A stretch of DNA of 64,000 nt from positions 1,899,001-1,963,000 of the forward strand of contig OZ004590.1 of assembly GCA_963924555.1 (NCBI GenBank), in the 5' to 3' direction. Positions 28,531 through 64,000 of the stretch are shown piece after piece. The translations under genes were made by a program, and so were the position numbers. Under the pieces are notes generated by a model. That model had not been told where the DNA came from, searched no databases, and saw nothing but the letters and a program-made list of their open reading frames with translations. Each line of letters starts with the position of its first letter. Position 1 is the stretch's first letter. This DNA is from Crambe crambe (Eukaryota > Porifera > Demospongiae > Poecilosclerida > Crambeidae).

Positions 28531-31500
28531 ATGAAGAGTATTCTGTTCGCAGTTTTCTTGCTTCTGCAAGCTATTTCAATATCATCCAGTCAGGAAAGTT
28601 GTATTCTCAGTTTTAACGATAGTCTTGACTTGCAAAGTTGTACTGAAGTGCATTTAGACATTGATTTCATTGAAATTAATGAAACAATAGCAGTGTCAGG
28701 AAGCAGCAAGATCTTACTTCAAGGACTCGAAAATCGCAGCAAAGTTTCATGTTTGAGTGGCACTGGAGTTAAATTTGATCACATTGACAGTCTGAGAATC
28801 ATTAACATTGAGTTCACCAACTGTGGAATCCTGCATAATGTTTCCAATGCCAGTAAAAAAAAATTTCTCAAATCTGCCATTTTTATTTACAACAGCAGAA
28901 ATGTGACTATTCAGAACACACATGTTGAAGATTCTGATGGTTCAGGACTGGTGCTCATGAATAACCACAGGATTAATATCGAGCACAGTTCCTTCAAAGG
29001 TGGTAGCATAAAAATAAACTATTCCGACTTGAGTATATCTGGTGGAGGAGGCATATTTATTGCATTTACTTGTTTGGTGACAATAAAGAGCATCAATTTG
29101 AATTCAAATTACTGTGAAAATTCAAAAGTCAGCATCAAATACAGCCACTTTATTGATAACAATTCCGAGAATTTGAGAAAATATGGTTCTACAAGCTGCA
29201 TTGGTAATGTCTTTTCTGGTGTGAATGAAGGAGGAGGATTAAGTATCATTTTAAGAGATTCTTCAATGAACAATGTTTCAGTACTGCAGTCAGAATTGAA
29301 GAGTAACAAAGCTTTGTGGGGTGGAGGGTTCAAAGTCGTCATGTGTAGAAATGCAACGAATAATACCATAAACCTGAAGCATTCTGAGTTGAAGAACAAC
29401 AGTGTAGATGATCGTGGAGGTGGTGGAATTGACATTGGATTTATCGGCAATGGAGTAATTGGGAATTCTGTCAATGTGCATTCAGTCATATTTACTGGTA
29501 ATCATGCCCTCTATGGTGGTGGGGCCTCTCTCTTCATTTACCTCGCACACAATCAAGTTGAGAATGTTTTTACTTTGTCCAATTGCACTTGGAAGCAAAA
29601 TTATGCTCACTATGGAGCAGCCTTTTATGTATCTCCCCAAATAAAAGATGTCATTGGTAAAAACATATTGCCACGGTTGAATCTTATCAATTGCTCTTTT
29701 GAATCCAATTACATTTACTCTGAAAATATCACAGGCATTGTGAGAAGAATGGGTGATGGCATTGTCATGGTAACTGGCTACACCCTGAATTTAGCTGGAA
29801 ATGTAACATTTGCTAATAATCGAGGTTCCTGTATATATGCCACTTCAAGTGTTGTCCACTTCAGCCCTCGTACTTATGCTCTATTTCTTAACAACACAGC
29901 CTGGCAGGGAGCAGGCATTGCTTTATATGGGTTCTCATTGATCATCGCAAGTGAGCCATCACGCATTATATTTTGTAATAACTCTGTTTCTGATAGAGGA
30001 GCAGCTATATATTACTACTCCATTGATAAGAATGCTTACATTCGCACTCGAACTTGTTTCATACAATCTTCTCTGCAGTCTACCAGGAAAACAGTGTATT
30101 ATAATTTCTATGGAAACAAAGCTTTAAAAGACTCCACATATGATAATGGGGTGATGAGGGATGATTCCATTTATGCCTCATCATTGGCTTCATGTCTCTC
30201 AGAAAGCAATAACCAACTCACATTTTATGAAACTGCAAATTTTAATCACTACAATGTCTGTACACAGAATATGATCCCAATTCTCCATGCTAATATGAGC
30301 AATAATAGTTATCATGACTATGGAGAGCCTAAAGTATCAAGTATTGAAAAAGAAATCGAATTTGATGATAATGAAAGTACTGTCATTAACTTCATACCTG
30401 GAAAGAAGTTTGAGATACCACTTAAAGTAACAAAATATAGCTCCTTAAAAGTTAACACACCATTTCATGTGTTTATTAGGAATCATGGTAATTCCAATAT
30501 CACTCTTTCTAAAGCATACAGGTATATAACAGGACATTCATTACGTTTGAAGGGCTGTCCTGAAGACAATGCTACAATTACCTTACTTGAATCATGCTTC
30601 CGTAAGTATTCTATTTCTTTTCGGGTGTATGCACTACACTGTCCTCCTCTTTATCGGTTGGAGAATGGGGAATGTGTCTGTCGTTCTACTGTTGATCTGA
30701 TTTTTGTAGAGTTCCATAAATGCAACAATTCCAATTACCATGCAAGTATAAGGTTAGGTTACTGGATTGACTTCACACATGCCAAGAATCTCACATCAAA
30801 CACTTGTACAGAGCGTAGCTTTGCTTTGCTCACAAGCTATTGTCCATTTGGATACTGCTCACAAGGTGTAGATGAAGACATTTACATTGAACTTCCTAAT
30901 GATACGTTCTCTATATCAATTTGCAATTTCAGAAAGGAACAGCTGTGTGGCAAGTGTGAAGATGGAAGAGCTGTATTCTTTCACAGTGAGTCATTCAAAT
31001 GTGGTGAAACTGACTTGTGTTATTTAGGGCTCCTTTTTTACCTCCTTTCTGAGATTCTTCCCATCACACTTCTCTTCCTGATCATAATATTCTTCAACAT
31101 CAGTTTCACATCGGGAGATTTAAAGTGGTTTATATTCTTTGCTCAAGTTTATGACACAATATCGAATGTAGGAGGGAGTTTCATCACCCATTCCGATAGT
31201 TACAGCAAAATAAGTGTTGCTATTCGTCTCATTTATAAGCTTTTCAACTTTGACTTCTTTAATACTGATGAGCTTTCCTTCTGTCTTTGGAACACCCCCT
31301 CAACACTGGACATATTGGTCTTTAAGTATGTGACTGTCATCTATGCTTTAGTACTCGTTCTCGGCACCATTTGGCTGATTGGATTTTGCAGTAAGTTCAA
31401 ATGCTTGAAATTCAGGCGTCCAAAATATTCAGTCATTCAAGGTCTGTCAGCCTTCCTGGTCATGGCATATTCTCAATGTTCATATATCTCATTTTTAATA

Positions 31501-32313
31501 CTGTATCAAATCACAATTTACAATGAATCAACAGTATATAAACAGGTTGTGTATCTACAAGGAAACATCGAGTATATGACTAAAGCTCACTTTCCTTATG
31601 CCATTCCAGCTATCTTTTGCATTTGTTCCTTCATTGCTGTTCTCCCTATACTGCTTATCACTTACCCACTGTGTAACAAGGTGATCCTGTTCCTAGGAAT
31701 CGAGGAAAATTGTATTATCAAGTTCATATCTAGACTGATACCCATCACCAAAATAAAACCTTTTCTTGACTGTTTTCAAGGTACATTCAAGGACAAGTAT
31801 CGTTTCTTTGCTGGATTGTATTTCGTGTATCGTGTTAGTATCTTATCTTCCAGGTTTGCAACTGGAGTCATGCCGATATTTGTGATAATTGAGCTTCAAC
31901 TGATAGTCATGATGGCCCTACATACGATTACTTGGCCTTACCAGAAAAAGATACACAACATCATTGATTTCTTGGTTTTGACTAATTTAGCAATCATAAA
32001 CACACTGAAATTGCTGAATTTTTTCTATGCCGAAAATGGTAAGAGATCAGGAAGTAAGTCTCATATAATCCACTGGATTCAGCTTTTCTTCACTTGCCTC
32101 CCCCTCTTTTGTCTCGTCTTGTGGTGCTTTCTCTATGCTGCTCACAAGTTCAAGATTGTGTCGAGGATCATGAAAAAAATGGGCAGCATAAGTAGAACTG
32201 AGCATGATGGACATGATGAGGACAATGAGGATTTTTATGATCGAGATCGAACGCTTTCATCAGATTCATATCGTTTGGTAAAAGGAAGGCAATTGGAGAA
32301 TTTAGTAACCTGA
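28531..32313 (+). CDS. Array copy 1: β-helix (Pmp-like) multi-pass membrane protein
   Basis: An intronless ORF of 1260 residues. A signal peptide (1 to about 21, ILFAVFLLLQ) precedes a large N-glycosylated ectodomain. Residues ~160-520 carry repeats of the FxxNxA...GGG type (FTGNHALYGGGASLF, LKSNKALWGGGFKV, NNSVDDRGGGGI, NYAHYGAAFY, NNTAWQGAGIAL), like the Pmp/right-handed β-helix repeats of bacterial surface proteins. A Cys-rich stalk follows (CPPLYRLENGECVC, LCGKCEDGRAVFFHSESFKC). From about residue 833 there are 7-9 hydrophobic helices (near 833, 868, 926, 967, 1024, 1092, 1113, 1144, 1182), with KPFLDCFQGTFKDKYRFFAG before the sixth. The tail is acidic (DEDNEDFYDRDR). I recall similar β-helix plus multi-TM architecture in uncharacterised sponge and cnidarian proteins; function unknown. 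Probably a surface receptor; G-protein coupling is not shown. Confidence 0.9.
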   Translation: MKSILFAVFLLLQAISISSSQESCILSFNDSLDLQSCTEVHLDIDFIEINETIAVSGSSKILLQGLENRSKVSCLSGTGVKFDHIDSLRIINIEFTNCGILHNVSNASKKKFLKSAIFIYNSRNVTIQNTHVEDSDGSGLVLMNNHRINIEHSSFKGGSIKINYSDLSISGGGGIFIAFTCLVTIKSINLNSNYCENSKVSIKYSHFIDNNSENLRKYGSTSCIGNVFSGVNEGGGLSIILRDSSMNNVSVLQSELKSNKALWGGGFKVVMCRNATNNTINLKHSELKNNSVDDRGGGGIDIGFIGNGVIGNSVNVHSVIFTGNHALYGGGASLFIYLAHNQVENVFTLSNCTWKQNYAHYGAAFYVSPQIKDVIGKNILPRLNLINCSFESNYIYSENITGIVRRMGDGIVMVTGYTLNLAGNVTFANNRGSCIYATSSVVHFSPRTYALFLNNTAWQGAGIALYGFSLIIASEPSRIIFCNNSVSDRGAAIYYYSIDKNAYIRTRTCFIQSSLQSTRKTVYYNFYGNKALKDSTYDNGVMRDDSIYASSLASCLSESNNQLTFYETANFNHYNVCTQNMIPILHANMSNNSYHDYGEPKVSSIEKEIEFDDNESTVINFIPGKKFEIPLKVTKYSSLKVNTPFHVFIRNHGNSNITLSKAYRYITGHSLRLKGCPEDNATITLLESCFRKYSISFRVYALHCPPLYRLENGECVCRSTVDLIFVEFHKCNNSNYHASIRLGYWIDFTHAKNLTSNTCTERSFALLTSYCPFGYCSQGVDEDIYIELPNDTFSISICNFRKEQLCGKCEDGRAVFFHSESFKCGETDLCYLGLLFYLLSEILPITLLFLIIIFFNISFTSGDLKWFIFFAQVYDTISNVGGSFITHSDSYSKISVAIRLIYKLFNFDFFNTDELSFCLWNTPSTLDILVFKYVTVIYALVLVLGTIWLIGFCSKFKCLKFRRPKYSVIQGLSAFLVMAYSQCSYISFLILYQITIYNESTVYKQVVYLQGNIEYMTKAHFPYAIPAIFCICSFIAVLPILLITYPLCNKVILFLGIEENCIIKFISRLIPITKIKPFLDCFQGTFKDKYRFFAGLYFVYRVSILSSRFATGVMPIFVIIELQLIVMMALHTITWPYQKKIHNIIDFLVLTNLAIINTLKLLNFFYAENGKRSGSKSHIIHWIQLFFTCLPLFCLVLWCFLYAAHKFKIVSRIMKKMGSISRTEHDGHDEDNEDFYDRDRTLSSDSYRLVKGRQLENLVT

Positions 32314-33520
32314 GCTATAACAAAATTACTCTGCCAGCAACAGCTTATGATATCATTAAACTGATTATCTTCTTATTATAGTCATTTCCTGTAGCTAACC
32401 ACATTATTTTTTCATTACTGTATTAGAAAACACACTGAATTGACTGTATAATAACTAGCTAGCTATTTTCATCCCTTTTCTATCATACAAGATCATTATT
32501 ATATATATACAGTGAAGTATTAATAGTGAGTTGTGCATCACAAGCCATATGGATGGCAGTTATGCTTCATGATAACATACATAGATATACAAAATCACCA
32601 AATTATGAGCAGTGAAGTCAACAGTTTATAAGTGAATGAAGTATGTGTGGTATGATGCATTTTAGTGCTTGCACTGTGTGAATTGGTTAATGCAGCAGAC
32701 TCACTGGGACAGGCAAGCAAATCTAGCTAGTTTCCTAACTCATCAAGCAGTGATAAGATGAAACTTCTTGATCAATTTTGCTGACTCTTCATTATTATTA
32801 AGAGACAGAAAAAGTGACCACTTAGCTAAATCTCATAGCTAATACCAAACAAATATCTTCTTTTGGGTGGGGGAAAGCCACGGTGTGGCAATGAATGATA
32901 TCCCTAGTGAATAAATGTGTCCCCCCACCCCTCATACAGGGTAAAAAACTGTCCCTCCCAGTGAATATAAGCTCCATGGGCATGTATGTTTGTATGTTGG
33001 CAGCTTTGATTGGGAAGATATTTGGAGTGGGGAGTAATAAAACATGTATGCTGGACAAGGGGGAAATGTTTGGGTGGAGTGCCAGTGGTCATTGTCACCA
33101 TATTTTTTATTTTCTATGTTCTATGGTATATCTGTTATCATAATAAAGATGAAGCAAACTCACTATTAAAATTGTACGCTCCCACAAATGCCATCATTAT
33201 ACATTTCACTTATAGGAAGAGCAAAATATCAATGAGTTGAGTATTAGTATTAATTTTAGCTACCAGATGTCTTAAAATTGTAAAGAGATTCATAATGAGA
33301 AAGAGGACTTGTGGAATATTATAGTATGACTTTCAAAGGTAGATTTATACAAAGAACTAAACTCTATCCACTTTTACAAGAATAGCTACTCCTTAAAATT
33401 TATCCTGCTAAGGTCAAGCCCTGAATGAGAAATAAGTTTGAAAGCTGTGTATTTTGGACACCCTGCACTTACAGAAGCTTCCAAGCATGCTTTGTGGGTC
33501 ATGTAGCTAGTCTCCTGGTG

Positions 33521-33924
33521 CCACCCCTCCACCCCCCACCCCCCACCCTTCCACCCCCCACCCCTCCACCCCCCACCCTTCCACCCCCACCCCTCCACCC
33601 CCACCCTTCCACCCACCACCCCTCCACCTCCCACCCCTCCACCCCCCACCCCTCCACCCACCACCCCTCCACCCCCACCCTTCCACCCCTCCACCCCTCC
33701 ACCCCTCCACCCCCCACCCTTCCACCCCCACCCCTCCACCCCCACCCTTCCACCCCTCCACCCCCCACCCTTCCACCCCTCCACCCTTCCACCCTACCCC
33801 TCCACCCCCCACCCTTCCACCCACCACCCCTCCACCCCCCACCCCTCCACCCCCCACCCCTCCACCCCCCACCCTTCCACCCACCACCCCTCCACCCCCC
33901 ACCCCTCCACCCCCCACCCTTCCA
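33521..33924. repeat. C-rich minisatellite, G-quadruplex prone on minus strand
   Basis: About 400 bp of CCACCCCTCCACCCCC-type units, almost free of G on the plus strand. Sister units have only a short C-rich seed at the same place (27478-27490, 42180-42212). ORFs here in all frames are low-complexity artefacts. Confidence 0.9.
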
Positions 33925-34666
33925 CATTTTTAATTTTATAGCTTCCACGATCCAGAGTATACATACAGTTTGTACGTATGTACATTATTCATGATGAAAA
34001 TAATATTATTATGTAGTCTGGACACAGTACAGCAGTAGCTATAGGTTCAATACTAACTAGCTATCTGCCACTGGCAGAGTGCACCTGCATGAGACATCAT
34101 TGAGGGTGAAGTTGAAGCATTTTGCATGATTGCTATTGATTGTGTGGTCGATGTAGCTAAAAGCTTATCTGCTCATTGTATATAGTTACTCAGTTAAACT
34201 CTGTGGTGAATACAGAACAACTTTGGGCTAATAGATACATACAAATTATTTTGCAGCTGAGTAAGCTTTATCAGTTACATCGATTCCACACCCAGTAGTG
34301 ATTACCCAGTAGTGATTAGATCTTCAGCCTCATTAATGTCGCTAAAAGAAATTGCTTGTTTTACTCAAGAAGGAAGGCAAGATTGTAGCATAACTCACCT
34401 TCCATCAATAATTAGCTATTATGTAACATGAAAAATGCAGTCCCTTATTAAAAACAGCGTACGTACATGCAGTGTAGTCCACTTTCTTATGGATAGCTGT
34501 AGCTTAGCAACATGATGCTAGCTATGTGTATGATAGTGGTTCTCATAATTTTGAAAGTAATACAGCAAATTATTATTAAACTGTGCTCTTATCTTGAGAA
34601 GCTATTATTATTTAGCTTCTTTGTAGTTGGATACATGTATCAATAACTAAATGTCAAAAGCCATCA

Positions 34667-34791
34667 TTGGTTGTATGGTTGATAAAATATTACGCATATT
34701 GCTGAATTTGGGACTAGCTATAGATAAGTAAATTACTTATCCCAAATTCAGCAACCTATGCATAATATTTATCAACCATACAACCAAAATC
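34667..34791. mobile_element. Palindromic MITE upstream of copy 2
   Basis: The same element as at 28282-28445, with arms GGTTGTATGGTTGATAAA and their complements, but the outer arm is trimmed on the left. Near 43247-43347 only part of one arm is left upstream of copy 3. Confidence 0.7.
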
Positions 34792-34838
34792 TTACTCTGT
34801 TTATGAATGTTTACCTTCAGTATAGCTACCATCATCAT

Positions 34839-34846
34839 TATATAAG
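34839..34846 (+). promoter_or_regulatory. TATA box of array copy 2
   Basis: TATATAAG, 33 bp before the ATG, followed by the conserved GAATTCATCCAATAGCC block. The 12-bp insert seen in copy 1 between TATA and this block is absent here. Confidence 0.65.
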
Positions 34847-34878
34847 AATGAATTCATCCAATAGCCAGGCAGTTCATA

Positions 34879-37800
34879 ATGGAGAGTATTCTGTTCGCAG
34901 TTTTCTTGCTCCTGCAAGCTCTTTCGATATCATCCAGTCAGGAAAGTTGTATTCTCGGTTTTAACGATAGTCTTGACTTGCGGAGTTGTACTGAAGTGCA
35001 TTTAGACATTGATTTCATTGAAATTAATGAAATAATAGCAGTATCAGGAAGCAGCAAGATCTTACTTCAAGGACTCAAAAATCGCAGCAAAGTTTCATGT
35101 TTGAGTGGCACTGGATTGAAATTTGATCACATTGATAGTCTGAGAATCATTAACATTGAGTTCACCAACTGTGGAATCCTGCATAATATTTCCGATACTA
35201 GTAAAAAAATTTTTCTCAAATCTGCCATTTTTATCTACAACAGCAGAAATGTGACTATTCAGAACACACTTGTCAAAGATTCTGACGGTTCAGGACTGGT
35301 GTTGATGAATAACCACAGGGTTAATATTGAACACAGTTCCTTCATAGGTGGTAGCATAAAAACGAACTATTCTGACTTCGATGATGTGAGTATATCAGGT
35401 GGAGGAGGCATATTTATTGCATTTACTTGTTTGGTGACAATAAAGAGCATCAATTTGAATTCAAATTACTGTGAAAATTCAAAAGTCCTCATCAAATACA
35501 GCCACTTTATTGATAACAATTCCGAGAATTTGAGAAAATATGGTTCTACAAGCTGCATTGGTAATGTCTTTTCTGGTGTGAATGAAGGAGGAGGAGTAAG
35601 TATCATTTTAAGAGATTCTTCAATGAATGATGTTTCAGTACTGCAGTCAGAGTTGAAGAGTAACAAAGCTTTGTGGGGTGGAGGGTTCAAAGTCGTCATG
35701 TGTAGAAATGCAACGAATAATACCATAAACCTGAAGCATTCTGAGTTGAAGAACAACAGTGTAGATGATCGTGGAGGTGGTGGAATTGACATTGGATTTA
35801 TCGGCAATGGAGTAATTGGGAATTCTGTCAATGTGCATTCAGTCATATTTACTGGTAATCATGCCCTCTATGGTGGTGGGGCCTCTCTCTTCATTCACCT
35901 CGCACACAATCAAGTTGAGAATGTTTTTACTTTGTCCAATTGCACTTGGAAGCAAAATTATGCCCACTATGGAGCAGCCTTTTATGTATCTCCCCGAATA
36001 AAAGATGTCATTGGTAAAAACATATTGCCACGGTTGAATCTTATCAATTGCTCTTTTGAATCCAATTACATTTACTATGAAAATATCACAGGCATTGTGA
36101 GAAGAATGGGTGATGGCATTGTCATGGTAACTGGCTACACCCTGAATTTAGCTGGAAATGTAACATTTGCTAATAATCGAGGTTCCTGTATATATGCCAC
36201 TTCAAGTGTTGTCCACTTCAGCCCTCGTACTTATGCTCTATTTCTTAACAACACAGCCTGGCAGGGAGCAGGCATTGCTTTATATGGGTTCTCATTGATC
36301 ATCGCAAGTGAGCCATCACGCATTATATTTTGTAATAACTCTGTTTCTGATAGAGGAGCAGCTATATATTACTACTCCATTGATAAGAATGCTTACATTC
36401 GCACTCGAACTTGTTTCATACAATCTTCTCTGCAGTCTACCAGGAAAACAGTGTATTATAATTTCTATGGAAACAAAGCTTTAAAAGACTCCACATATGA
36501 TAATGGGGTGATGAGAGATGATTCCATTTATGCCTCATCATTGGCTTCATGTCTCTCAGAAAGCAATAACCAACTCACATTTTATGAAACTGCAAATTTT
36601 AATCACTACAATGTCTGTACACAGAATATGATCCCAATTCTCCATACTAATATGAGCAATATTAGTTATCATGACTATGGAGAGCCTAAAGTATCAAGTA
36701 TTGAAAGAGAAATCGAATTTGATGATAATGAAAGTACTGTCATTAACTTCATACCTGGAAAGAAGTTTGAGATACCACTTAAAGTAACAAAATATAGCTC
36801 CTTAAAAGTTAACACACCATTTCATGTGTCTATTAGGAATCGTAATAATTCCAATATCACTCTTTCTAAAGCATACAGGTATATAACAGGACATTCATTA
36901 CGCTTGAAGGGCTGTCCTGAAGATAACGCTACAATTACCTTACTTGAATCAGGCTTCCGTAAGTATTCAATTTCTTTTCGGGTGTATGCACTACACTGTC
37001 CTCCTCTTTATCGGTTGGAGAATGGGGAATGTGTCTGTCGTTCCACAGTTGATCTGATTTTTGTAGAGTTCCATAAATGCAACAATTCCAATTACCATGC
37101 AAGTATAAGGTTAGGTTACTGGATTGACTACACACATGCCAAGAATCTGACATCAAACACTTGTACAGAGCGTAGCTTTGCTTTGCTCACAAGCTATTGT
37201 CCACTTGGATACTGCTCACGAGGTGTAGATGAAGACAATTACATTGAGCTTCCTAATGATACGTTCTCTATATCAATTTGCAACTTCAGAAAAGAACAGT
37301 TGTGTGGCAAATGTGAAGATGGAAGAGCTGTATTCTTTCACAGTGAGTCATTCAAATGTGGTAAAACTGACCTGTGTCATTTAGGGCTTCTCTTTTACCT
37401 CCTTTCTGAGATTCTTCCCATCACACTTCTCTTCCTGTTCATAATATTCTTCAACATCAGTTTCACATCGGGAGATTTAAATGGGTTTATATTCTTTGCT
37501 CAAGTTTATGATACAATATCGAATGTAGGAGGGAGTTTCATCACTCATTCCGATAGTTATAGCAAAATAAGTGTTGCTATTCGTCTCATTTATAAGCTCT
37601 TTAACTTTGACTTCTTTAATACTGATGAGCTTTCCTTCTGTCTTTGGAATACACCCTCAACACTGGACATATTGGTCTTTAAGTATGTGACTGTCATCTA
37701 TGCTTTAGTACTCGTTCTCGGCACCATTTGGCTGATTGGATTTTGCAGTAAGTTCAAATGCTTGAAATTCAGGCGTCCAAAATATTCAGTCATTCAAGGT

Positions 37801-38679
37801 CTGTCAGCCTTCCTGGTCATGGCATATTCTCAATGCTCATATATCTCATTTTCAATACTGTATCAAATCACAATTTATAATGAATCAACAGTATATAAAC
37901 AGGTCGTATTTCTACAAGGAAACATTGAGTATATGACTAAAGCTCACCTTCCTTATGCCATTCCAGCTATCTTTTGCATTTGTTCCTTCATTGCTGTTCT
38001 TCCTCTACTGCTTATCACTTACCCACTGTGTAACAAGGTGATCCTGTTCCTAGGAATCGAGGAAAACTGTATCATCAAGTTCATATCTAGACTGATACCC
38101 ATCACCAAAATAAAACCTTTTCTTGACTGTTTTCAAGGTACATTCAAGGACAAGTATCGTTTCTTTGCTGGATTGTATTTCATGTATCGTGTGAGTGTCT
38201 TATCTTCCAGGTTGATAACTGAAGTAATGCTGATATATGTGATGATTGAACTTCAATTGATAGTCATGATGGCCCTACATACAATTACTTGGCCTTATCA
38301 GAAAAGGATACACAACATCATCGATTTCTTGGTTTTGACTAATTTAGCAATCATAAACACACTGAAATCGCTGAATTTTTTCTATGCCGAAAATGGTAAG
38401 AGATCAGGAAGTAAGTCTCGTATAATCCACTGGATTCAGCTTTTCTTCATTTGCCTCCCCCTCTTCTGTCTTGTCTTGTGGTGCTTTCTCTATGCCGCTC
38501 ACAAGTTCAAGATTGTGTCGAGGATCAAGAAAAAAATGGGCAGCATAAGCAGAACAGAGCGTGATGGACATTATTCTGATGATGAGGACAATGAGGATTT
38601 TTATGATCGAGATCGAACGCTTTCATCAGATTCATATCGTTTGGTAAAAGGAAGGCAATTGGAGAATTTAGTGACCTGA
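34879..38679 (+). CDS. Array copy 2: β-helix (Pmp-like) multi-pass membrane protein
   Basis: An intronless, intact ORF of 1266 residues with the same architecture as copy 1: signal peptide, FxxN/GGG β-helix repeats, Cys-rich stalk, 7-9 TM helices, acidic tail. Through the β-helix region (about residues 190-560) it is almost identical to copy 1. Near the C-terminus it departs from copy 1 and agrees with copy 3 (RLITEVMLIYVMIELQ, YQKRIHN, LKSLNFF), suggesting exchange between copies. The tail has an extra YSDDE segment. It is followed at 2 kb by the minus-strand GIY-YIG-like gene. Confidence 0.9.
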   Translation: MESILFAVFLLLQALSISSSQESCILGFNDSLDLRSCTEVHLDIDFIEINEIIAVSGSSKILLQGLKNRSKVSCLSGTGLKFDHIDSLRIINIEFTNCGILHNISDTSKKIFLKSAIFIYNSRNVTIQNTLVKDSDGSGLVLMNNHRVNIEHSSFIGGSIKTNYSDFDDVSISGGGGIFIAFTCLVTIKSINLNSNYCENSKVLIKYSHFIDNNSENLRKYGSTSCIGNVFSGVNEGGGVSIILRDSSMNDVSVLQSELKSNKALWGGGFKVVMCRNATNNTINLKHSELKNNSVDDRGGGGIDIGFIGNGVIGNSVNVHSVIFTGNHALYGGGASLFIHLAHNQVENVFTLSNCTWKQNYAHYGAAFYVSPRIKDVIGKNILPRLNLINCSFESNYIYYENITGIVRRMGDGIVMVTGYTLNLAGNVTFANNRGSCIYATSSVVHFSPRTYALFLNNTAWQGAGIALYGFSLIIASEPSRIIFCNNSVSDRGAAIYYYSIDKNAYIRTRTCFIQSSLQSTRKTVYYNFYGNKALKDSTYDNGVMRDDSIYASSLASCLSESNNQLTFYETANFNHYNVCTQNMIPILHTNMSNISYHDYGEPKVSSIEREIEFDDNESTVINFIPGKKFEIPLKVTKYSSLKVNTPFHVSIRNRNNSNITLSKAYRYITGHSLRLKGCPEDNATITLLESGFRKYSISFRVYALHCPPLYRLENGECVCRSTVDLIFVEFHKCNNSNYHASIRLGYWIDYTHAKNLTSNTCTERSFALLTSYCPLGYCSRGVDEDNYIELPNDTFSISICNFRKEQLCGKCEDGRAVFFHSESFKCGKTDLCHLGLLFYLLSEILPITLLFLFIIFFNISFTSGDLNGFIFFAQVYDTISNVGGSFITHSDSYSKISVAIRLIYKLFNFDFFNTDELSFCLWNTPSTLDILVFKYVTVIYALVLVLGTIWLIGFCSKFKCLKFRRPKYSVIQGLSAFLVMAYSQCSYISFSILYQITIYNESTVYKQVVFLQGNIEYMTKAHLPYAIPAIFCICSFIAVLPLLLITYPLCNKVILFLGIEENCIIKFISRLIPITKIKPFLDCFQGTFKDKYRFFAGLYFMYRVSVLSSRLITEVMLIYVMIELQLIVMMALHTITWPYQKRIHNIIDFLVLTNLAIINTLKSLNFFYAENGKRSGSKSRIIHWIQLFFICLPLFCLVLWCFLYAAHKFKIVSRIKKKMGSISRTERDGHYSDDEDNEDFYDRDRTLSSDSYRLVKGRQLENLVT

Positions 38680-40715
38680 GCTATAACAAAATTACTCTGC
38701 CAGCAACAGCTTATGATATCATTAAACTGATTATCTTCTTATTATAGTCATTTCCTGTAGCTAACCACATTATTTTTTCATTACTGTATTAGAAAACACA
38801 CAGAATTGACTGTATAATAACTAGCTAGCTATTTTCATCCCATTATTATATATACAGTGAAGTATTAATAGTGAGTTGTACATCACAAGCCATATGGATG
38901 GCAGTTATGCTTCATGATAACATACGTAGATTTAGGAAATCACCAATGAGCAGTGAAGTCAACAATTTATAAGTGAATGAAGTATGTGTGGTATGATGCA
39001 TTTAGTGCTTGCATTGTATGAATTGGTTAATGCAGCAGACTCACTGGGACAGGCAAATAAATCTAGCTAGTTTCCTAACTCATCAAGCAGTGATAAGATG
39101 AAACTTCTAGATCGATTTTGCTGACTCTCCATTATTATTAAGGGACAGAAAAAGTGACCACTTAGCTAAATCTCATAATACCAAACAAATATCTTCTTTT
39201 GGGTGGGGAAGTCATGGAGTGGCAATGAATGATATCCCCAGTGAATAATGTGTCCCCCCACCCCTCACACAGGGGAAAAAACTGTCCCTCCCAGTGAATA
39301 TACGCTCCATGGGCACGTATGTTTGTATGTTGGCAGCTTTGATTGGGAAGATATTTGGGGTGGGGAGTAATAAAAAAATGTATGCTGGACAAGGGGGAAA
39401 TGTTTGGGGGGAGTGCCAGTGGCCATTGTCGCCATATTTTCTATTTTCTATGTTCTATGGTATATCTGTTATCATAATAAAGATGAAGTAAACTCACTGT
39501 TAAAATTGTTCTGTATACAGGGATTGATACAGGCTTTTTTTATTACAAAATAGATGCTGAACTGGTATGTTGTTTTCAATGGGAATAGTATCAATTGGTT
39601 GGGGGGGGGGGGGGGGGGGGGGGGCAGGTTTTCACTACACCTCTGTATTAATCCCTGGTATATAAAATAATGATCTTGCATCCAATGATGATCTCAGTCA
39701 TATGCTCTGTTTTCTGTTCAAAAGAATGACCTAACTAAGTGTTATAAATAGTGCTGATCACATGCAGGAATGTCATTCAATGGTGCTGATTATGTTCAAA
39801 TAATGTTTCAAAGGCTGTGGTCTCTGCACGACTGCACAAACCTGCAGGGTCAGAAAGTGGTGTTATAGCTAATCCGGATTATTTTAAATACTCAACAATT
39901 CAGTTAAAGAAAACTTGCATGCAAAAGAAAACTGTGGGGGATCCTCATTAGGCTTATAATTCAGAATAATATAATTATAGGTAGCTAGTTAGGTAACTAT
40001 ACTGGAAACTAGGAATAATGTTAGAATAATAGGGATTCTTAGCATGCAAAATTTCAATTATCAATAATTACCACATTCTTTGCGTGCATGACATATCAAC
40101 ATGAGCTAGTGGCTACAGAGGAGCACTGCTCATCCAACCTTCCTTTGTAGCAGCTGAAAGAGTTTTTATCTCTGCTGGCAATAGCTATACTCTTTGTAAG
40201 ACCACATAATCAGGGAAATAATAATTATCGAGAATGATATGGGAATCCTATAGTAATAGCTAGGTACCTACATATGTAGCATGAGAATCCATGAGCCTAA
40301 TCACTACAACTACGTATACTATCTATTCAGTGTGGTTTGTTAGCTATGTCACCAATAATTAAGGGAAATTGGGAATCTTATAGGAATCTATAGGGTAAAT
40401 GAGAGAATAATGAGTACAACCAACACAAGAACCCAAGAATAGAATCTTCAGTAATGGAGGCATTCAGTTGTGATACTATCATATTATAGTATACTTGTTT
40501 TTATATGTACCCAAAAACATTAAAGACTTGTAGAGATGAAAAATTAAGCAGAGCTCTTAGAAACATTATGGTATAGCTAGCTAGCTACAATGATTTAACC
40601 CCATTTTAATAAAACTCAGTAATAATGATAAATTCAGTTGAGACACAAATCAAAAGAGAAGTTTTTCTTTAGTACTATAGCTGTTTCAGTATAGCTAACT
40701 TCAGCAACCATAATA
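38680..40715. other. Spacer downstream of copy 2
   Basis: To about 39490 it matches the region after copies 1 and 3; 39490-39680 matches 49120-49450; from about 39718 it matches 57310-58200 upstream of the second GIY-YIG-like gene. It holds a G24 homopolymer and no ORF of note. The empty site of the hairpin transposon is near 39465-39480. Confidence 0.65.
39601..39624. repeat. Poly-G tract (24 nt)
   Basis: A homopolymer G run; the homologous position after copy 3 (49379 onward) has only a short G run. A likely sequencing or assembly weak point. Confidence 0.85.
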
Positions 40716-41180: not shown

Positions 41181-41218
41181 GGCAGAAAACTGAATGGCAA
41201 CTAGCTAGCAACGCATTT

Positions 41219-46400: not shown

Positions 46401-47187
46401 ATCAACAGCATATAAACAGGTTGTATTTCTACAAGGAAACATCAAGTATATGACGACAGCCCATCTTCCTTATGCCATTCCAGCTATCTTTTGCATTTGT
46501 TCCTTTGTTGCTGTTCTTCCTCTACTGCTCATCACTTACCCACTGTGTAACAAGGTGATCTTGTTCCTAGGAATCGAAGAAAACTGCATAGTCAAGTTCA
46601 CATCTAGACTGATACCCATCACCAAAATAAAACCTTTTCTTGACTGTTTTCAAGGTACATTCAAGGACAATTATCGTTTCTTTGCTGGATTGTATTTCAT
46701 GTATCGTGTGAGTATCTTATCTTCCAGGTTGATAACTGAAATAATGCTGATATATGTGATGATTGAGCTTCAACTGATAATCATGATGGCCCTACATACA
46801 ATTACTTGGCCTTATCAGAAAAGGATACACAACATCATCGATTTCTTAGTTTTGACTAATTTAGCAATCATAAACACACTGAAATCGCTGAATTTTTTCT
46901 ATGCCGAAAATGGTAAGAGATCAGGAAGTAAGTCTCGTATATTTCACTGGATTCAGCTTTTCTTCATTTGCCTCCCCCTCTTTTGTCTCGTCTTGTGGTG
47001 CTTTCTCTATGCCACTCACAAGTTCAAGATTGTGTCGAAGATCAAGAAAAAAATGGGCAGCATAAGCAGAAGAGAGCGTGATGGACATGATGAGGACAAT
47101 GAAGATTTTTATGATCGAGATCGAATGCTTTCATCAGATTCATATCGCTTGGTAAAAGGAAGGCAATTGGAGAATTTAGTAACCTAA
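43413..47187 (+). pseudogene. Array copy 3: frameshifted β-helix/multi-TM gene
   Basis: Homologous to copies 1 and 2 over its whole length, but read in two frames: 43413-45437 (signal peptide, β-helix repeats; ends in an off-frame tail) and a downstream frame from about 45400 to 47187 (Cys-rich stalk, TM domain, tail). Around 45388-45394 fifteen bases present in copy 2 (between CCAATAT and ATACAGG) are replaced by one, a net loss of 14. No other stop or frameshift is seen, so the lesion is recent or polymorphic. The first frame alone would give a secreted 674-residue β-helix protein without membrane anchor. The β-helix part resembles copy 5 while the C-terminus resembles copy 2. Confidence 0.85.
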
Positions 47188-49096: not shown

Positions 49097-49147
49097 TCAT
49101 AATAAAGATGAAGCAAACTCACTAGGATTGATACAGAATTTTTTGCT

Positions 49148-49165: not shown

Positions 49166-49483
49166 AGAAAATTTTATGGACGAAATGTATGCTGAATGTC
49201 AGATCTGTATTGGGAGCTTATTATCTATACTATAATTTTACTCTTTGCCATTCTTGAAGCATTGAAGGCCCTGAACTTTTTGAAGTAAACTTTAGTGAAA
49301 TTTTAGACATTTTTTAATTACAAAATAGACACACTGAACTGTATTTTATGTTTTCAATGGGAATAGTATCAATTGGTTGGGGGGGAGACACTCTAGGTTG
49401 GGGGGGGATCCCAGTTTTTCACTACCTCTGTATTAATCCCTGGTATATAAATAATGATCTTGCATGATCTCAGTCATATGTTC

Positions 49484-49786
49484 TGTTTTGCTTATGCTGA
49501 CCCATTTTTTTCTTGATTCTTGACACTAACTTGAACTTGTGAGTGGCATAGAGAAACCACCACAAGATAGGACCAATGAATTATATGAGATTAAGTCACT
49601 TCCTGATCTCTTACCATTTTCAGCATAGTGATTTCAGTGATTATGATAGGTAAATTTCCAAGAAATCAATTATGTCAATCACATGTATCTTTTTCTGGTA
49701 AGGCCAAGTATCAGTTAAAGCTCAATTATCACATACTCCAGTTGCAAACCTGGAAGATAAGATACTAACACGATACATGAAATACG
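49484..49786 (-). pseudogene. Inverted relic of array gene, 3' third
   Basis: Read on the minus strand this matches the coding end of the array genes: TTTCATGTATCGTGTTAGTA, CCAGGTTTGCAACTGG, CTTGGCCTTACCAGAAAAAG, GCTGAAAATGGTAAGAGATC, CTATGCCACTCACAAGTTCA and AAGAAAAAAATGGG occur in order. Several internal deletions and duplicated bits break the frame. It is a remnant of a further copy in the opposite orientation. Confidence 0.8.
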
Positions 49787-50879: not shown

Positions 50880-53800
50880 ATGGGGAGTATTCTGTTCGCA
50901 ATTTTCTTGCTTTTGCAAGCTCCTTTGATATCATCCAGTCAGGAAAGTTGCATTCTCAGTTTTAATGATAATCTCGACTTGCAAAGTTGTACCGAAGTGC
51001 ATTTAGACATTGATTTTATTGAAATTAATGAAACAATAGCTGTGTCAGGAAGCAGCAAGATCTTACTTCAAGGACTTAAAAATCGCAGCAAAATTTCATG
51101 TTTGAGTGGTACTGGATTGAAATTTGATCACATTGACAGTCTGACAATCATTAACATTGAGTTCACCAACTGTGGAATCCTGCATAATGTTTCTAACACC
51201 AGTAAGATCATTTTAAAGTCTGCTATTTTCATCTACAACAGCAGAAATGTGACTATTCAGAACACACTTGTCGAAGATTCTGACGGTTCAGGACTGGTGC
51301 TCATGAATAACCACAGGATTAATATTGAGCACAGTTCCTTCATAGGTGGTAGCATGAAAACAAACTATTCTGACTTCAATGATGTGAGTATATCTGGTGG
51401 AGGAGGCATATTTATTGCATTTATTTGCTCACTGAAAACAGAATGCTTCGATTTGAATTCAAGTTACTGTGAAAATTCAACAGTCATTATCAGACATAGC
51501 CATTTTATTGATAACTATGCAAAGAGATTTAAAAATGGAACTATGTTTGATGATACAACAAGCTGTGCCTTTTCTGGTTTGAGTAAAGGAGGAGGAATAA
51601 GTCTCTTTTTAAATAATACTTCAAATAATAATGTCACAGTACTGCATTCAGAGTTGAAGAATAACAAGGCTCGGTGGAGTGGAGGGTTCAGAGTTGTCAT
51701 GTGTAGTAATGCAACAGATAATGTCATAAATCTGCAGCATTCCGAGTTGAAGAACAACAGTGTAGATGATCATGGAGGTGGTGGAATTAACATTGGATTT
51801 GTCGGCAATGGAGTAATTGGAAATGCTGTTAATGTGCATTCAGTCATACTGACTGGTAACCATGCCCTCTATGGGGGTGGGGCCTCTCTCTTCACTTACC
51901 TTGCACACAATCAAGACAACAATACTTTTAATATGTCAAATTGCACCTGGAGACAAAATCATGCCCACTATGGAGCAGCCTTTTATGTATCTCCCCAAAT
52001 AAAAGAGGTCATTGATAAAAACATACTGCCACAGCTGAATTTTATCAATTGCTCCTTTGAATCCAATTATATATGCTCTAAAAATATCACAGGCATTGTG
52101 AAAAGAATGGGTGATGGCATTGTCATGGTAACTGGCTACACTGTGAATTTTGCTGGAAATATAACGTTTGCTAATAATCAAAATGGTTCATGTATATATG
52201 CCACTTCAAGTGTTGTCCATTTCAGCACTCATACTTATGCTCTATTTCTTAACAACACAGCCAGGCAGGGAGCAGGCATTGCTTTATATGGCTTCTCATT
52301 CATCATCACAAGTGAGCAGTCACATATAACATTTTGTAATAACTCTGTTTCTAACAGAGGAGCAGCTATATATTACTACTCCATTGATAAGGATGCTTAC
52401 ATTCACTCTCGAACTTGTTTTATGTCTCAGTTTGGGTCTACCATGAACTTCTATGGCAACAAAGCTTTAAAAGATCCTACTTATGCTAATGGGGTGATGA
52501 GAGATGATTCTATCTATGCCTCATCCCTGGCTTCGTGCTCCTCAGGAAATGAATTTGCAAATTTTAATCACTACAATGTTTGTAAACAGAATATGATCTC
52601 GAATCTCCATGATAATACATGTTATAACGATGGGGAGCCTGTTATATCAAGTATCGAAAGAAAAATTGAATTTGATGGTAATGAAGGTACTGTCATTAAC
52701 TTTATACCTGGAAAAGAGTTTGAAATACCACTTAATGCTATGAATTATATCTCCTTGAAAGTTAACGCACTGTTTCGTGTGTCTATTAGGAATCATGATA
52801 ATTCCAATATCACTCTTCCTAAAGCATACAGGTATATTACTGGACATTCATTACGTTTGAAGGGCTGTCCTGAAGACAATGCTACAATTACCTTACTGGA
52901 ATCGGGCTTTCGTAAATATTCAATTTCTTTTCGGGTGTATGCGCTACACTGTCCTTTTCTATATCAGTGGGAGAATGGGGAATGTATCTGTCGTTCTACT
53001 GTCGATCTGATTTTTGTAGAGTTCCATAAATGCAACAATTCCAATTACCATGCAAGTATAAGGTTCGGTTACTGGATTGACTACACACATGCCAAGAATC
53101 TCACATCAAACACTTGTACAGAGCGTAGCTTTGCTTTGCTCACAAGCTATTGTCCACTTGGATACTGCTCACGAGGTGTAGATGAAGACAATTACATTGA
53201 GCTTCCTAATGATACACTCTCGATATCAATTTGCAACTTCAGAAAGGGACAGCTGTGTGGCAAGTGTGAAGAAGGAAAAGCTGTCTTCTTTCACAGTGAA
53301 TCGTTCAGATGTGGTGAAACTGACTTTTGTCATTTAGGGCTTCTCCTTTACCTCCTTTCTGAGATTCTTCCCATCACACTTCTCTTTCTGTTTATAATAT
53401 TCTTCAACATCAGCTTCACATCTGGAGATTTAAGTGGGTTTATATTCTTTGCTCAAGTTTACGATACGATATCAAAAGTAGGAGGGAGTTTCTTCATCCA
53501 TACTGATAGTTACAGCAATTTAAGTGTTGCTATTCGTCTCATCTATAAGGTCTTCAACTTTGACTTCTTTAATACTGATAAGCTTTCCTTCTGTCTTTGG
53601 AACACACCCTCAACACTGGACATATTGGTCTTCAAGTACGTGACTGTAATCTATGCTTTAGTACTCGTTCTCGGTACCATTTGGCTGATTGGATTTTGCA
53701 GTAAATTCAAATGCTTGAAATTCAGGCGTCTGAAATACTCATTCATTCAAGGTCTGTCAGCCTTCCTGGTCATGGCATATTCTCAATGCTCATATATCTC

Positions 53801-54629
53801 ATTTTCAATACTGAATAAAATCACGATTTACAATGGATCAACAGAATATAAACAGGTTGTATTTCTACAAGGAAATGTTGAGTACATGACTAAAGCTCAT
53901 CTTCCTTATGCTATTCCAGCTATCTTTTGCATTTGTTCTTTCATCGCTGTTCTGCCTATACTGCTCATCACTTACCCACTGTGTAACAAGGTGATCAGAT
54001 TCCTAGGAATCGAAGAAAATTGTATCATCAAGTTCACATCTAGACTGATACCCATTACCAAAATAAAACCTTTTCTTGACTGTTTTCAAGGTGCTTTCAA
54101 GGACAATTATCGTTTCTTTGCTGGATTCTATTTCGTGTATCGTGTTAGTATCTTATCTTCCAGGTTTGCAACTGGAGTCATGCTGATATTTGTGATAATA
54201 GAGGTTCAACTCATAGTCATGTTGGCCCTACATACAATTTCTTGGCCTTACCAGAAAAAGATACACAACATCATTGATTTCTTGGTTTTGACTAATTTAG
54301 CAATCATAAACACACTGAAATTGCTGAATTTTTTCTACGCTGAAAATGGTAAGAAATCAGAAAGTAAGTCTCATATAATCCACTGGATTCAGCTTTTCTT
54401 CACTTACCTCCCCCTCTTTGGTCTTATCTTGTGGTGTTTTCTCTATGCCACTCACAAGTTCAAGATAGTGTCGAGGATCAAGAAAAAAATGGGCAGAATA
54501 AGCAGAACAGAGCGTGATGGACATTCTGTTGATGAAGACAATGAGGATTTTTATGACCGAGATCGAACACTTTCATCAGATTTGTATCGCTTGGTTAAAG
54601 GAAGGCAATTGGAGAATTTAGTAACCTAA
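50880..54629 (+). CDS. Array copy 4: β-helix (Pmp-like) multi-pass membrane protein
   Basis: An intact intronless ORF of 1249 residues with the family architecture. It is the most diverged intact copy in the ectodomain: short deletions near residue 225 (TTSCAFSGLSKGGG) and around 515-560 (SQFGSTMNFYGNK, SSGNEFANFNHY) and changes such as CPFLYQWENGECIC. The TM domain is well kept; near the C-terminus it agrees with copy 1 (RFATGVM, YQKKIHN, LKLLNFF) rather than copies 2 and 3. Start chosen at the ATG after the conserved leader block. Confidence 0.9.
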   Translation: MGSILFAIFLLLQAPLISSSQESCILSFNDNLDLQSCTEVHLDIDFIEINETIAVSGSSKILLQGLKNRSKISCLSGTGLKFDHIDSLTIINIEFTNCGILHNVSNTSKIILKSAIFIYNSRNVTIQNTLVEDSDGSGLVLMNNHRINIEHSSFIGGSMKTNYSDFNDVSISGGGGIFIAFICSLKTECFDLNSSYCENSTVIIRHSHFIDNYAKRFKNGTMFDDTTSCAFSGLSKGGGISLFLNNTSNNNVTVLHSELKNNKARWSGGFRVVMCSNATDNVINLQHSELKNNSVDDHGGGGINIGFVGNGVIGNAVNVHSVILTGNHALYGGGASLFTYLAHNQDNNTFNMSNCTWRQNHAHYGAAFYVSPQIKEVIDKNILPQLNFINCSFESNYICSKNITGIVKRMGDGIVMVTGYTVNFAGNITFANNQNGSCIYATSSVVHFSTHTYALFLNNTARQGAGIALYGFSFIITSEQSHITFCNNSVSNRGAAIYYYSIDKDAYIHSRTCFMSQFGSTMNFYGNKALKDPTYANGVMRDDSIYASSLASCSSGNEFANFNHYNVCKQNMISNLHDNTCYNDGEPVISSIERKIEFDGNEGTVINFIPGKEFEIPLNAMNYISLKVNALFRVSIRNHDNSNITLPKAYRYITGHSLRLKGCPEDNATITLLESGFRKYSISFRVYALHCPFLYQWENGECICRSTVDLIFVEFHKCNNSNYHASIRFGYWIDYTHAKNLTSNTCTERSFALLTSYCPLGYCSRGVDEDNYIELPNDTLSISICNFRKGQLCGKCEEGKAVFFHSESFRCGETDFCHLGLLLYLLSEILPITLLFLFIIFFNISFTSGDLSGFIFFAQVYDTISKVGGSFFIHTDSYSNLSVAIRLIYKVFNFDFFNTDKLSFCLWNTPSTLDILVFKYVTVIYALVLVLGTIWLIGFCSKFKCLKFRRLKYSFIQGLSAFLVMAYSQCSYISFSILNKITIYNGSTEYKQVVFLQGNVEYMTKAHLPYAIPAIFCICSFIAVLPILLITYPLCNKVIRFLGIEENCIIKFTSRLIPITKIKPFLDCFQGAFKDNYRFFAGFYFVYRVSILSSRFATGVMLIFVIIEVQLIVMLALHTISWPYQKKIHNIIDFLVLTNLAIINTLKLLNFFYAENGKKSESKSHIIHWIQLFFTYLPLFGLILWCFLYATHKFKIVSRIKKKMGRISRTERDGHSVDEDNEDFYDRDRTLSSDLYRLVKGRQLENLVT

Positions 54630-55827
54630 ACTATAACAAAATTACTCTGCCAACAGCTTATGCTTATATTGTGACAGAGTGATAATATGTTGTTTATGCA
54701 TGTACGTAGTGTATGATTATTGGTTTGTGGGTAATTAGTGATTTCATTTCTTTAGCTGTTAGTCTTTTTGTGCTTGATTTTTCCTGCTGTGTTCTAGAAT
54801 CTTCTCTTGTGCCTGTTTTTCCTGCATGTGTGATTAAGTAGGTTGATTTTTGTGTCAGTTTGAGAGTTCCATTGTATTTGCCATAAAAAAATTCACTAAC
54901 TACAAATTCGGCTACGTTACATATACATATCATTAACTCCTCATTTTCCTGTAGCTAACCACATTATTTTTTCATTACTATAATATTTTAAAACACACAC
55001 AATTGTCAGTATAACTAGCTATTTTCATCCCTTTTGTATCATACAAGATCATTTTATGCAGTAAATTAATTGTGAGTTGTGCATTACAAACCATGGATGA
55101 CAGTTATGCTTCATGATAGCATACGTAGCTACGTAGATATAGAAAATCACTAATGAGCAAGTGAAGAGTCAACAGTGAAAGTATGTCTGGGCACGCAGCT
55201 TGGCACATCCTTCCTGCTTATTGAGAATGCACTGGCCCAAATATCCACTGACCAAGATACATTTTAGTGCTTGTGCTGCATATTTTGCTTATGAATTGGT
55301 TAATGCAGCAGACTGGGACAGGCAAACAAATCCAACTAGCTTCCTAAGGAGTGAACTTTCCTGATGAAAAGAAACTTCTAAATCAATTCTGCTGACTCTT
55401 CGCTATTATTAAGGGAAGAAAAAGTAACCACTTAAATCAAACAAATATCTTCGTTTGGGGAGTGGGGGGAAAGCCACGGTGTGGCAATGAACGATATCCC
55501 CAGTGAATAATGTGTCCCCCCACCCCTCACACAGGGGAAAAACAGTCCCTCCCAATGAACGTCATAAGCTCCATTGGCACGTATGTCGGCAGCTTTCATA
55601 GTTGGGGGAAATGTTTGGGGGATGCCAGTGGTAATTGTCACCATAGATCATAGGTACGTATGTTATCTTGAAGCCCTAATAAAGATGAATTAAAACTTGC
55701 TATCGAAATTTGCTGTATGTGATCTTGCAGGATTACATAATGTGTTCTAATACAAATTAAATGTAGCTACAAAAAAGTATAATAATAATGACTGTTTAAT
55801 GATATAAGCATAAGGTGTTGACAGAGA
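54630..55827. other. Spacer downstream of copy 4
   Basis: It matches the post-gene regions of the other units from about 54950, with a ~290-bp insert near 54665-54945 not seen in the sisters. No supported gene. Confidence 0.55.
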
Positions 55828-56105
55828 CTGAGTAACTTACCAAATTCTTCAATTGCCATTCTTTACCAAGCGAAATGAATCTGATGATGATCTCAGTCAT
55901 AAGAATCCTCATTATCCTTGTCATTGGTCCATTATGCTCTGTTGCCCATTGATTCTTGATGCTGATAACTTGTGAGTGGTATAGAGAAAGCACCATAAGA
56001 CAAGACCAAAGAGGGGAAGGGAAAGCTGAATCCAGTGAATTAAATAAAAGACTTATTTCATGATACCATTTTCAGTGTAGAAGCAATTTCAGTGTGTTTA
56101 TGATT
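55828..56105 (-). pseudogene. Second inverted relic of array gene 3' end
   Basis: On the minus strand AATCATAAACACACTGAAAT, CACTGGATTCAGCTTT, CCCCTCTTTGGTCTTGTCTT, GTGCTTTCTCTAT, GAGGATTCTTATGACTGAGA and CGCTTGGTAAAGAATGGCAA follow the last ~90 codons and stop region of the array genes, with small deletions. It abuts the cyclodeaminase pseudogene at 56106. Confidence 0.8.
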
Positions 56106-56505
56106 ACTCGATCCTTTTATTGCCAACAAAAATGTCAAACAGTGACCAATTCAGATGTTATCATTGCAGCAACTGCCATGTTGAACGAGCCTGTCTTTTT
56201 TGATAAATGGGTGAAGCCTGGAGCATTGGTACTGGCTGTGATAAATTTTCATCATTGATCAAAGCCAAGGGTTGCTATAATCCTTTCTCCAATGCTCCTT
56301 ATGCCGAGTAAGGGGAATTGGTGACTGGAAAGAAACTAGGACGATAGAATGACACAGAGAGGGTCATCAATTTCAACTGTGGGCTAGGAATCCATGACAT
56401 GATCATTGGGGCTAATGTAGTGGAGAAAGCCAAGAAGTAGGGCTTGGGGGTAGAGCTGGAACTGATCTATTTGGTAAGCCCGTGCCACTTCCTTGTATGT
56501 CTTAA
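56106..56505 (+). pseudogene. Ornithine cyclodeaminase-family pseudogene (3' part of exon 3)
   Basis: It matches 26045-26527 of the functional gene from PFIANKN to the stop codon. It has internal deletions (for instance between GTCAAA and CAGTGACC, and after CTGGCTGTG) and at least three in-frame stops (GCCGAGTAA, CGATAG, AAGAAGTAG). The homology continues through the 3' flank to about 56875, so it is a genomic duplication of the gene's 3' end and not a processed copy. Confidence 0.9.
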
Positions 56506-58685: not shown

Positions 58686-58727
58686 GGCAGAAAACTGAAT
58701 GGCAGCTACGTAGCTAGCAACGCATTT

Positions 58728-58736
58728 CCTTATATA
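58728..58736 (-). promoter_or_regulatory. TATA box of GIY-YIG-like gene, copy B
   Basis: TATATAAGG on the minus strand, about 43 bp before the ATG, as in copy A. Confidence 0.55.
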
Positions 58737-58769
58737 GCTAGCTACTCCATATCCTCCTTGGTTCCTCAT

Positions 58770-60608: not shown

Positions 60609-60616
60609 TATAAAAA
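60609..60616 (+). promoter_or_regulatory. TATA box of array copy 5
   Basis: TATAAAAA within GTGGCATATAAAAAGAGTG, identical to copy 4, 32 bp before the ATG at 60648. Confidence 0.6.
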
Positions 60617-60647
60617 GAGTGAATTCATCCAAGCCAAGCAGTTCACA

Positions 60648-63600: not shown

Positions 63601-64000
63601 GTCATGGCATATTCTCAATGTTCATATATCTCTTTTTCAATACTGAATAAAATTACGATTTACAATGGATCAACAGCATATAAACAGGTTGTATTTCTAC
63701 AAGGAAACATTGAGTACATGACTAAAGCTCACCTTCCTTATGCCATTCCAGCTATCTTTTGCATTTGTTCCTTCATTGCTGTTCTTCCTCTACTGCTCAT
63801 CACTTACCCACTGTGTAACAAGGTGATCCGATTCCTAGGAATTGAAGAAAACTGCATCATCAAGTTCACATCTAGACTGATACCCATCACCAAAATAAAA
63901 CCTTTTCTTGACTGTTTTCAAGGTGCTTTCAAGGACAATTATCGTTTCTTTGCTGGATTCTATTTCGTGTATCGTGTTAGCATCTTATCTTCCAGGTTTG
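60648..64000 (+). pseudogene. Array copy 5: frameshifted, truncated by window end
   Basis: Start set at 60648 (MEMVLFTVYLLL) after the TATA box and leader block; an in-frame ATG at 60576 lies upstream of the TATA box and is rejected. The signal peptide and β-helix repeats read normally to GSC at about 61965. There four extra bases (TGTACGTATATATG against TGTATATATG in copy 1) shift the frame and it stops at 62030. Read in the restored frame, the rest is open through the Cys-rich stalk and TM helices to the window edge with no stop seen. One recent lesion, as in copy 3. The 3' end is outside the window. Confidence 0.8.

Follow-up and report, generated by a model that had tools for sequence, protein, structure and literature searches.

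A clustered gene family in the sponge Crambe crambe joins a probable β-helix ectodomain to a multi-pass membrane domain and suggests a role in recognition

Sponges feed on bacteria, live together with them and turn down tissue that is foreign, and how molecules are told apart is an old question. Molecular discrimination by sponges is usually approached via SRCR, NLR and aggregation-factor genes. Could genes of another kind take part? The question is raised by a window of 64,000 nucleotides of the Crambe crambe assembly (143 Mb, 119 contigs), namely positions 1,899,001-1,963,000 of contig C13, which holds five same-strand copies of one gene family, three of them intact single-exon genes and two frameshifted. 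The make-up of the encoded proteins suggests receptors discriminating outside molecules, microbes or other sponges. Judged from sequence, their most likely role would be in the recognition by sponge cells of variable outside molecules.

A preliminary description, made from the letters of the window, had proposed five intronless copies of about 1250 residues, each joining a β-helix to a Cys-rich stalk and 7-9 transmembrane helices. Five copies are indeed found, and the intact ones (copies 1, 2 and 4) are open reading frames without introns, of 1260, 1266 and 1249 amino acids (aa). The copies, and the parts of the first of them, are these:

28531..32313 (+): copy 1 (P0001), intact single-exon gene, 1260 aa, with full-length paralogues in the genome search
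28531..28593 (+): signal-peptide-like start of copy 1, residues 1-21, hydrophobic peak at residues 5-12, segment end set by eye
28594..30630 (+): putative Pmp-like right-handed β-helix ectodomain of copy 1, residues 22-700, N.A.(W/Y)GGG and FxxN repeats
30631..31041 (+): Cys-rich juxtamembrane stalk of copy 1, residues 701-837, 12 Cys, common to class B (see below)
31042..32139 (+): membrane domain of copy 1, residues 838-1203, eight hydropathy peaks, nine hand-set helices, no Pfam or PDB match
32140..32310 (+): predicted cytoplasmic tail of copy 1, with a YRLV (YxxPhi) motif
34879..38679 (+): copy 2 (P0002), intact, 1266 aa, with signs of recent gene conversion with copy 1
43413..47187 (+): copy 3, a frameshift leaving two frames, 43413-45437 and 45421-47187
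50880..54629 (+): copy 4 (P0003, also L003), intact, 1249 aa
60648..64000 (+): copy 5, split by a frameshift into frames ending at 62030 and starting at 61945, continuing past the window

The upstream frame of copy 5 spans 60576-62030, with the first family Met at 60648, and its matches go on to about 64455 in window numbering. Fresh pseudogenes had been noted, and copies 3 and 5 are indeed broken; their frameshifts may be due to mutation or to assembly error. Further copies, plus fragments, lie on C13 beyond the window, at about 1.968, 2.044 and 2.139 Mb.

How far does the family extend? The core of its transmembrane domain was matched at no fewer than 492 loci on 19 contigs. At least 154 of these, on 16 contigs, belong to a class with the β-helix (class A), 110 of them with single frames of at least 1100 aa. 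At least 338 belong to a short class without it (class B), 211 of them with single frames of 500-700 aa. Class was called by frame length or, where frames were short, according to which query had picked up the locus. Full-length single frames thus stand at 321 or more of the 492 loci; the other 171 have shorter frames and are partial, broken, fragments or exons of possibly intron-bearing members. All of these counts are lower bounds, as 37, 104 or 150 of 333-840 candidates were scored per genome search. The union of a first set of 150-candidate searches gave 395 loci, and two later searches brought these to 492; fragments less than 330 bases apart were merged and the added loci were picked by eye. 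A genome-wide count had been proposed beforehand, and its result is far above one copy per genome. Among the first 395 loci, 343 lie no more than 20 kb from another family member (42 would be expected for an even spread), the largest cluster, on C6, packs 47 class-A loci into 0.32 Mb, and the lengths of full-length frames peak at 500-699 and at 1200-1299 aa. Tandem amplification, as proposed for the window, is real, but the family is not confined to the array.

What does the outer part of these proteins look like? Sequences of 25 class-A and eight class-B proteins were inspected. In P0001 a signal-peptide-like hydrophobic N-terminus is followed by an ectodomain of about 680 residues. The protein contains 11 FxxN motifs (shuffled mean 3.7), 12 GG[AGIVLS] motifs (2.0) and 23 N-glycosylation sequons (12.5), and seven other members have 9-13, 8-15 and 17-27 of them, respectively. 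An N-x-A-x-(W/Y)-G-G-G motif recurs along the ectodomain in a 22-sequence alignment. At E 0.1, 19 of the 22 family ectodomains matched the Pfam model Chlam_PMP (PF02415; best E 1.4e-9) and 14 matched Beta_helix (PF13229; best E 1.6e-10). Repeats, sequons and Pfam matches all agree with the Pmp-like β-helix that had been proposed, and we consider a Pmp-like right-handed β-helix the probable fold. Two results count against this call: P0001 itself falls under both Pfam cut-offs, and a cut-off is passed by just two (L060 and L022, both with Chlam_PMP) of seven further full-length class-A proteins. Among PDB sequences nothing significant was found with P0001, and the ectodomain profile gave no match at E 1. 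The ectodomain alignment has no stretch with the degree of conservation that a prokaryote scan requires. A PF02415 scan of the Crambe crambe genome passed one match, the 19-residue model being too short for a genome count.

The likeness to chlamydial Pmps concerns their β-helix, whose FxxN and GGx repeats are also present in the sponge ectodomains. Pmps are described as bacterial autotransporters in the excerpt available of PMC11166332. Their C-terminal autotransporter β-barrel is not in the sponge family, where the C-terminal part is by hydropathy hydrophobic and helical and has no autotransporter Pfam match; unlike in Pmps, the β-helix comes fused to a multi-pass domain of helices. Since the Pmp repeat model also matches an E. 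coli control (one of 14 control genomes), the likeness concerns the repeat and the probable fold. It does not indicate that the ectodomain descends from chlamydiae, an origin for which we have no evidence.

Between the ectodomain and the membrane domain of P0001 lies a Cys-rich stalk, as had been described; it has 12 Cys. The averaged hydropathy profile of the 23 class-A proteins longer than 1200 aa has eight peaks after the signal peptide. A nine-helix model was set by hand, the added helix (residues 865-885) being below the hydropathy threshold. With nine helices the loop charges and sequons fit an arrangement with the N-terminus outside and the C-terminus inside: in P0001 four of the five inside segments contain K/R, the fifth being four residues long, and no sequon falls in an inside loop, though one (at 856) is placed within predicted helix 1, at its inner end. 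Across the 23 members the nine-helix model gives averages of 0.00-0.17 sequons per inside segment. With eight helices the signs of charges and sequons would reverse after helix 1. The predicted number of helices is eight or nine, with nine as the best fit; both lie within the range suggested earlier.

Does this domain belong to a known family? When 14 class-A and eight class-B members were compared with Pfam at E up to 5 no credible family was found, and in particular the 7tm, gustatory, TRP and ion-transport families went unmatched. Weak noise in such scans came, for example, from DUF7630 in the Cys-rich stalk (five of 14 members, best E 0.1). Transmembrane profiles of both classes gave nothing credible among PDB sequences. 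The class-A membrane profile had 26 pattern matches in a prokaryote genome collection and 77 in viral contigs, and the class-B profile had seven in viral contigs; none was confirmed. By sequence, then, membership of a known family of G-protein-coupled receptors (GPCRs) or transporters is ruled out. A membrane domain matching a transporter family with a housekeeping role and one copy per genome had been named in advance as a refutation, as had an ectodomain predicted not to be a β-helix; by sequence neither turned up. In terms of sequence the membrane domain is unlike any in the libraries searched, and the preliminary description was right to place it outside known families.

The eight class-B proteins retain the Cys-rich part and the membrane domain behind a short N-terminal region, and the profiles of the two classes align as homologues along 483 columns (Prob 100, E 1.8e-53). 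Class B, the more numerous of the two, is found on contigs C18, C8, C16, C3, C14, C12, C17 and C21 (e.g. L061-L068). In a midpoint-rooted tree of 33 sequences (28 of the 30 loci L029-L058 entered, 12 dropped for in-frame stops) the eight class-B sequences form one group with support 0.996, and the copies of the C13 array cluster together. One class-A member, L059, is placed on the same side of the root as class B, so either architecture may have come first. Two peculiarities were noticed on the way. On C17, at about 4.917-4.981 Mb, there are five class-B frames of exactly 591 aa, 15-17 kb apart. Four score equally, and the group looks as if it had been amplified in tandem recently. On C10 (5404086-5405243, minus strand) a family member sits in an open frame of 2031 aa, far longer than the others, possibly with an extra ectodomain or a fusion.

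YxxPhi and acidic dileucine motifs are adaptor-binding endocytosis motifs. In a sample of 25 predicted tails, from which near-identical copies were left out and in which related tails are still not independent, YxxPhi occurs in 16 (7.1 when shuffled; reached in none of 500 shuffles) and acidic dileucine in six (2.1; reached in nine of 500).

Several suggestions can be made as to what proteins of this kind might be for. The first is adhesion or a glycocalyx, with the β-helix as a stiff glycosylated adhesin or spacer for contact between cells or with matrix or prey, and with many copies giving dose and variety rather than recognition. The β-helix repeats with their many sequons would suit this, as would the resemblance to Pmps, to which the part available of PMC2997323 gives a role in adhesion. 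A conserved multi-pass domain, however, would be costly as a mere anchor, class B retains that domain without any β-helix, and most of the tails sampled carry YxxPhi. We consider adhesion an unlikely main function. Another suggestion is that both classes are chemosensory receptors or ligand-gated channels that sense small molecules in water. Families of the olfactory receptor type have intron-free coding, clusters and many pseudogenes, and the present family, with several hundred clustered multi-pass single-frame genes, resembles them in all three. But the membrane domain, besides matching none of the receptor and channel families listed above, is unrelated to that of olfactory receptors; class A adds a large ectodomain, and a β-helix of 700 residues would be unusual for sensing small molecules. 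To us a chemosensory function seems improbable.

Further suggestions depend on how the copies have evolved. Four more features of the window bear on this:

27479..33175 (+): duplicated unit holding copy 1, 93% identical to 33911-39509
33911..39509 (+): duplicated unit holding copy 2, second copy of the 27479-33175 unit
49478..49785 (-): fragment, in inverted orientation, of the 3' part coding for the membrane domain, about 66-68% identical to the copies
55764..56108 (-): second such inverted fragment from the 3' membrane-coding part, about 70-71% identical to the copies

Copies 1 and 2 sit in a common 5.7-kb unit of 93% identity. As their flanks are included, DNA was duplicated and not mRNA, and an origin of these two copies as retrocopies is ruled out. 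Over residues 301-600 they differ by a dS of 0.010, against about 0.1 elsewhere, and they share an identical run of 438 nucleotides, a length reached in one of 500 permutations. The run and the low dS together are a signature of gene conversion. Identity along the copies is blocky in general, and groups of copies differ from one another in blocks at residues of about 200-250 and 500-650. Copy 4 (L003) and L004 are 93-99% identical over residues of about 150-500 but only 71-77% over the three 50-residue blocks that follow, and copies 1 and 2 fall to 73% against copy 4 at residues of about 200-250. The copies are thus mosaics, as had been claimed.

Is the outer part changing faster than the membrane part? 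Among the 23 class-A proteins the median identity rises from 28% in the ectodomain through 34% in the stalk to 39% in the transmembrane part. Nineteen pairs of these proteins, in four groups, gave a ratio of nonsynonymous to synonymous substitution rates (dN/dS) of 0.11-0.28 for the transmembrane part, and in all 19 both halves of the ectodomain exceeded it. Because the pairs share members and dS is saturated in three pairs of one C6 group, this is a consistent trend and not 19 tests. The highest value for any domain is 1.00 (the pair L004/L005, outside the window), the other ectodomain values being 0.12-0.79. By these ratios the transmembrane helices are constrained; the β-helix evolves faster, and it shows the mosaics of gene conversion.

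Ectodomains that are clustered, mosaic and fast-evolving would also suit allorecognition, with class-A haplotypes specific to the individual deciding whether grafts fuse or are rejected. That sponges do tell self from non-self is stated in the portion available of PMC5450542. The family is, however, scattered over 19 contigs, class A over 16, and in the accessible main text of an Amphimedon graft transcriptome paper six terms, 'receptor' and 'transmembrane' among them, are absent. This makes allorecognition decidedly unlikely in our estimate. The last suggestion, a selfish or near-neutral expansion by tandem duplication and decay with little function for the organism, draws on the third of loci that have no full-length frame and on recent tandem copies such as those of C17, but it is likewise decidedly unlikely given the full-length frames kept at 321 loci and the low transmembrane dN/dS in every pair.

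For a birth-and-death multigene family of internalising sponge surface receptors, in which the β-helix would be the recognition module, we judge the chances evenly balanced. As far as sequence goes, most of the family is clustered and two thirds of the loci have one full-length frame, with a β-helix-type ectodomain, mosaic in structure, in class A and a constrained membrane domain; surface location, recognition, transduction and uptake we infer. A glycosylated β-helix rod outside the cell would bind variable ligands, be they microbial, dietary or from other sponges, and the stalk would relay binding to the membrane domain, which would signal, or take the receptor into the cell by means of the YxxPhi and dileucine motifs of its tail, or both. 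In class B this transducer would carry just a small ectodomain, and the repertoire would be renewed by duplication and gene conversion. Two features of a recognition repertoire are present, many clustered copies and an ectodomain diversifying faster than the transmembrane part; the early impression of a recognition family is thereby partly supported, although it had missed the still larger class without a β-helix.

Several observations weigh against internalising receptors. In no domain does dN/dS rise above 1, so diversifying selection is not proven, and relaxed constraint would also raise the ectodomain values. The number of helices is uncertain, with eight peaks set against nine in the hand model, and the transmembrane domain matches no known signalling family in Pfam or among PDB sequences. 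YxxPhi motifs occur in membrane proteins that are not receptors as well, and related tails do not count as independent. Finally, there are the 171 loci without a full-length frame.

If the family is nevertheless one of receptors, how does it compare with those already known? Proteins of the SRCR, NLR and TIR kinds cross the membrane once, are secreted or stay in the cytosol. Their expansions in sponges likewise reach hundreds of copies per genome and have a candidate role in recognition, but we found no domain in common with the β-helix family, which is multi-pass. In order of magnitude the family equals the SRCR counts given by the part available of PMC12465263, where the SRCR row of a domain table begins 389, 408, 375. 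Rhodopsin and Adhesion GPCRs of Amphimedon, in the excerpt at hand of PMC4302439, have expanded by duplication, with Rhodopsins in clusters of 2 to 8. These are multi-pass receptors grown by duplication, as is the Crambe family, which differs in lacking a 7tm match and in having, by hydropathy and the hand model, eight or nine helices and not seven. The family is not described in the open-licence PMC literature searched, including the portions available of PMC5450542, PMC12465263, PMC12716839, PMC4302439 and PMC7385117, which is weak evidence of absence. Domain surveys would miss it because the transducer has no Pfam model and the ectodomain often falls under the β-helix cut-offs. Expanded receptor families as such are already known; it is the joining of a β-helix to a multi-pass domain, and that membrane domain itself, that appear new.

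A wider possibility, which we put forward tentatively and as the doubtful part of the proposal, is that of a sponge recognition system not seen before: a superfamily of some 500 loci or more, not represented in the domain libraries searched, in which either a Pmp-like β-helix or a short Cys-rich head sits on a common multi-pass transducer and diversity comes from tandem duplication and from gene conversion of ectodomains. If true, it would be a sponge counterpart to SRCR/NLR arrays, olfactory receptors or Ig-type alloreceptors. For work on grafting, on exposure to microbes and on single cells the loci offer a defined set of genes, and the structure of the multi-pass domain would be worth solving.

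The rest of the window holds some other features. A bacterial contaminant is ruled out, the contig being 7.57 Mb long and containing exon-sized pieces of animal-type genes. Upstream of the array are an ornithine cyclodeaminase/mu-crystallin gene (25763-26524, +), an IBR-type exon (12450-12716, -) and an Ig-domain exon (5603-5932, -). A dispersed repeat of 82-97% identity is common to this single-gene part and the array (2001-3075 and 47995-49097). Between copies 1 and 2, at 33521-33925, there are about 27 copies of a C-rich 15-bp tandem repeat with a strong strand skew. A pair of small genes (40719-41180 and 58224-58769, both -), each combining a signal-peptide-like start with a T5orf172/MUG113 domain, was duplicated with the array (40189-41902 against 57630-59392, 84%); a secreted member of that family would be odd. 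Elsewhere in the genome, many closely grouped papain-fold exons were found on C9 and C15 (L069, L071-L073). In two of the five papain-type exons examined, L072 and L073 on C15, the catalytic Cys is replaced by Ser ("CGSSYAF", "CGASYAF"), which we take to be the mark of silicatein and as pointing to a siliceous sponge; the other three keep the Cys.

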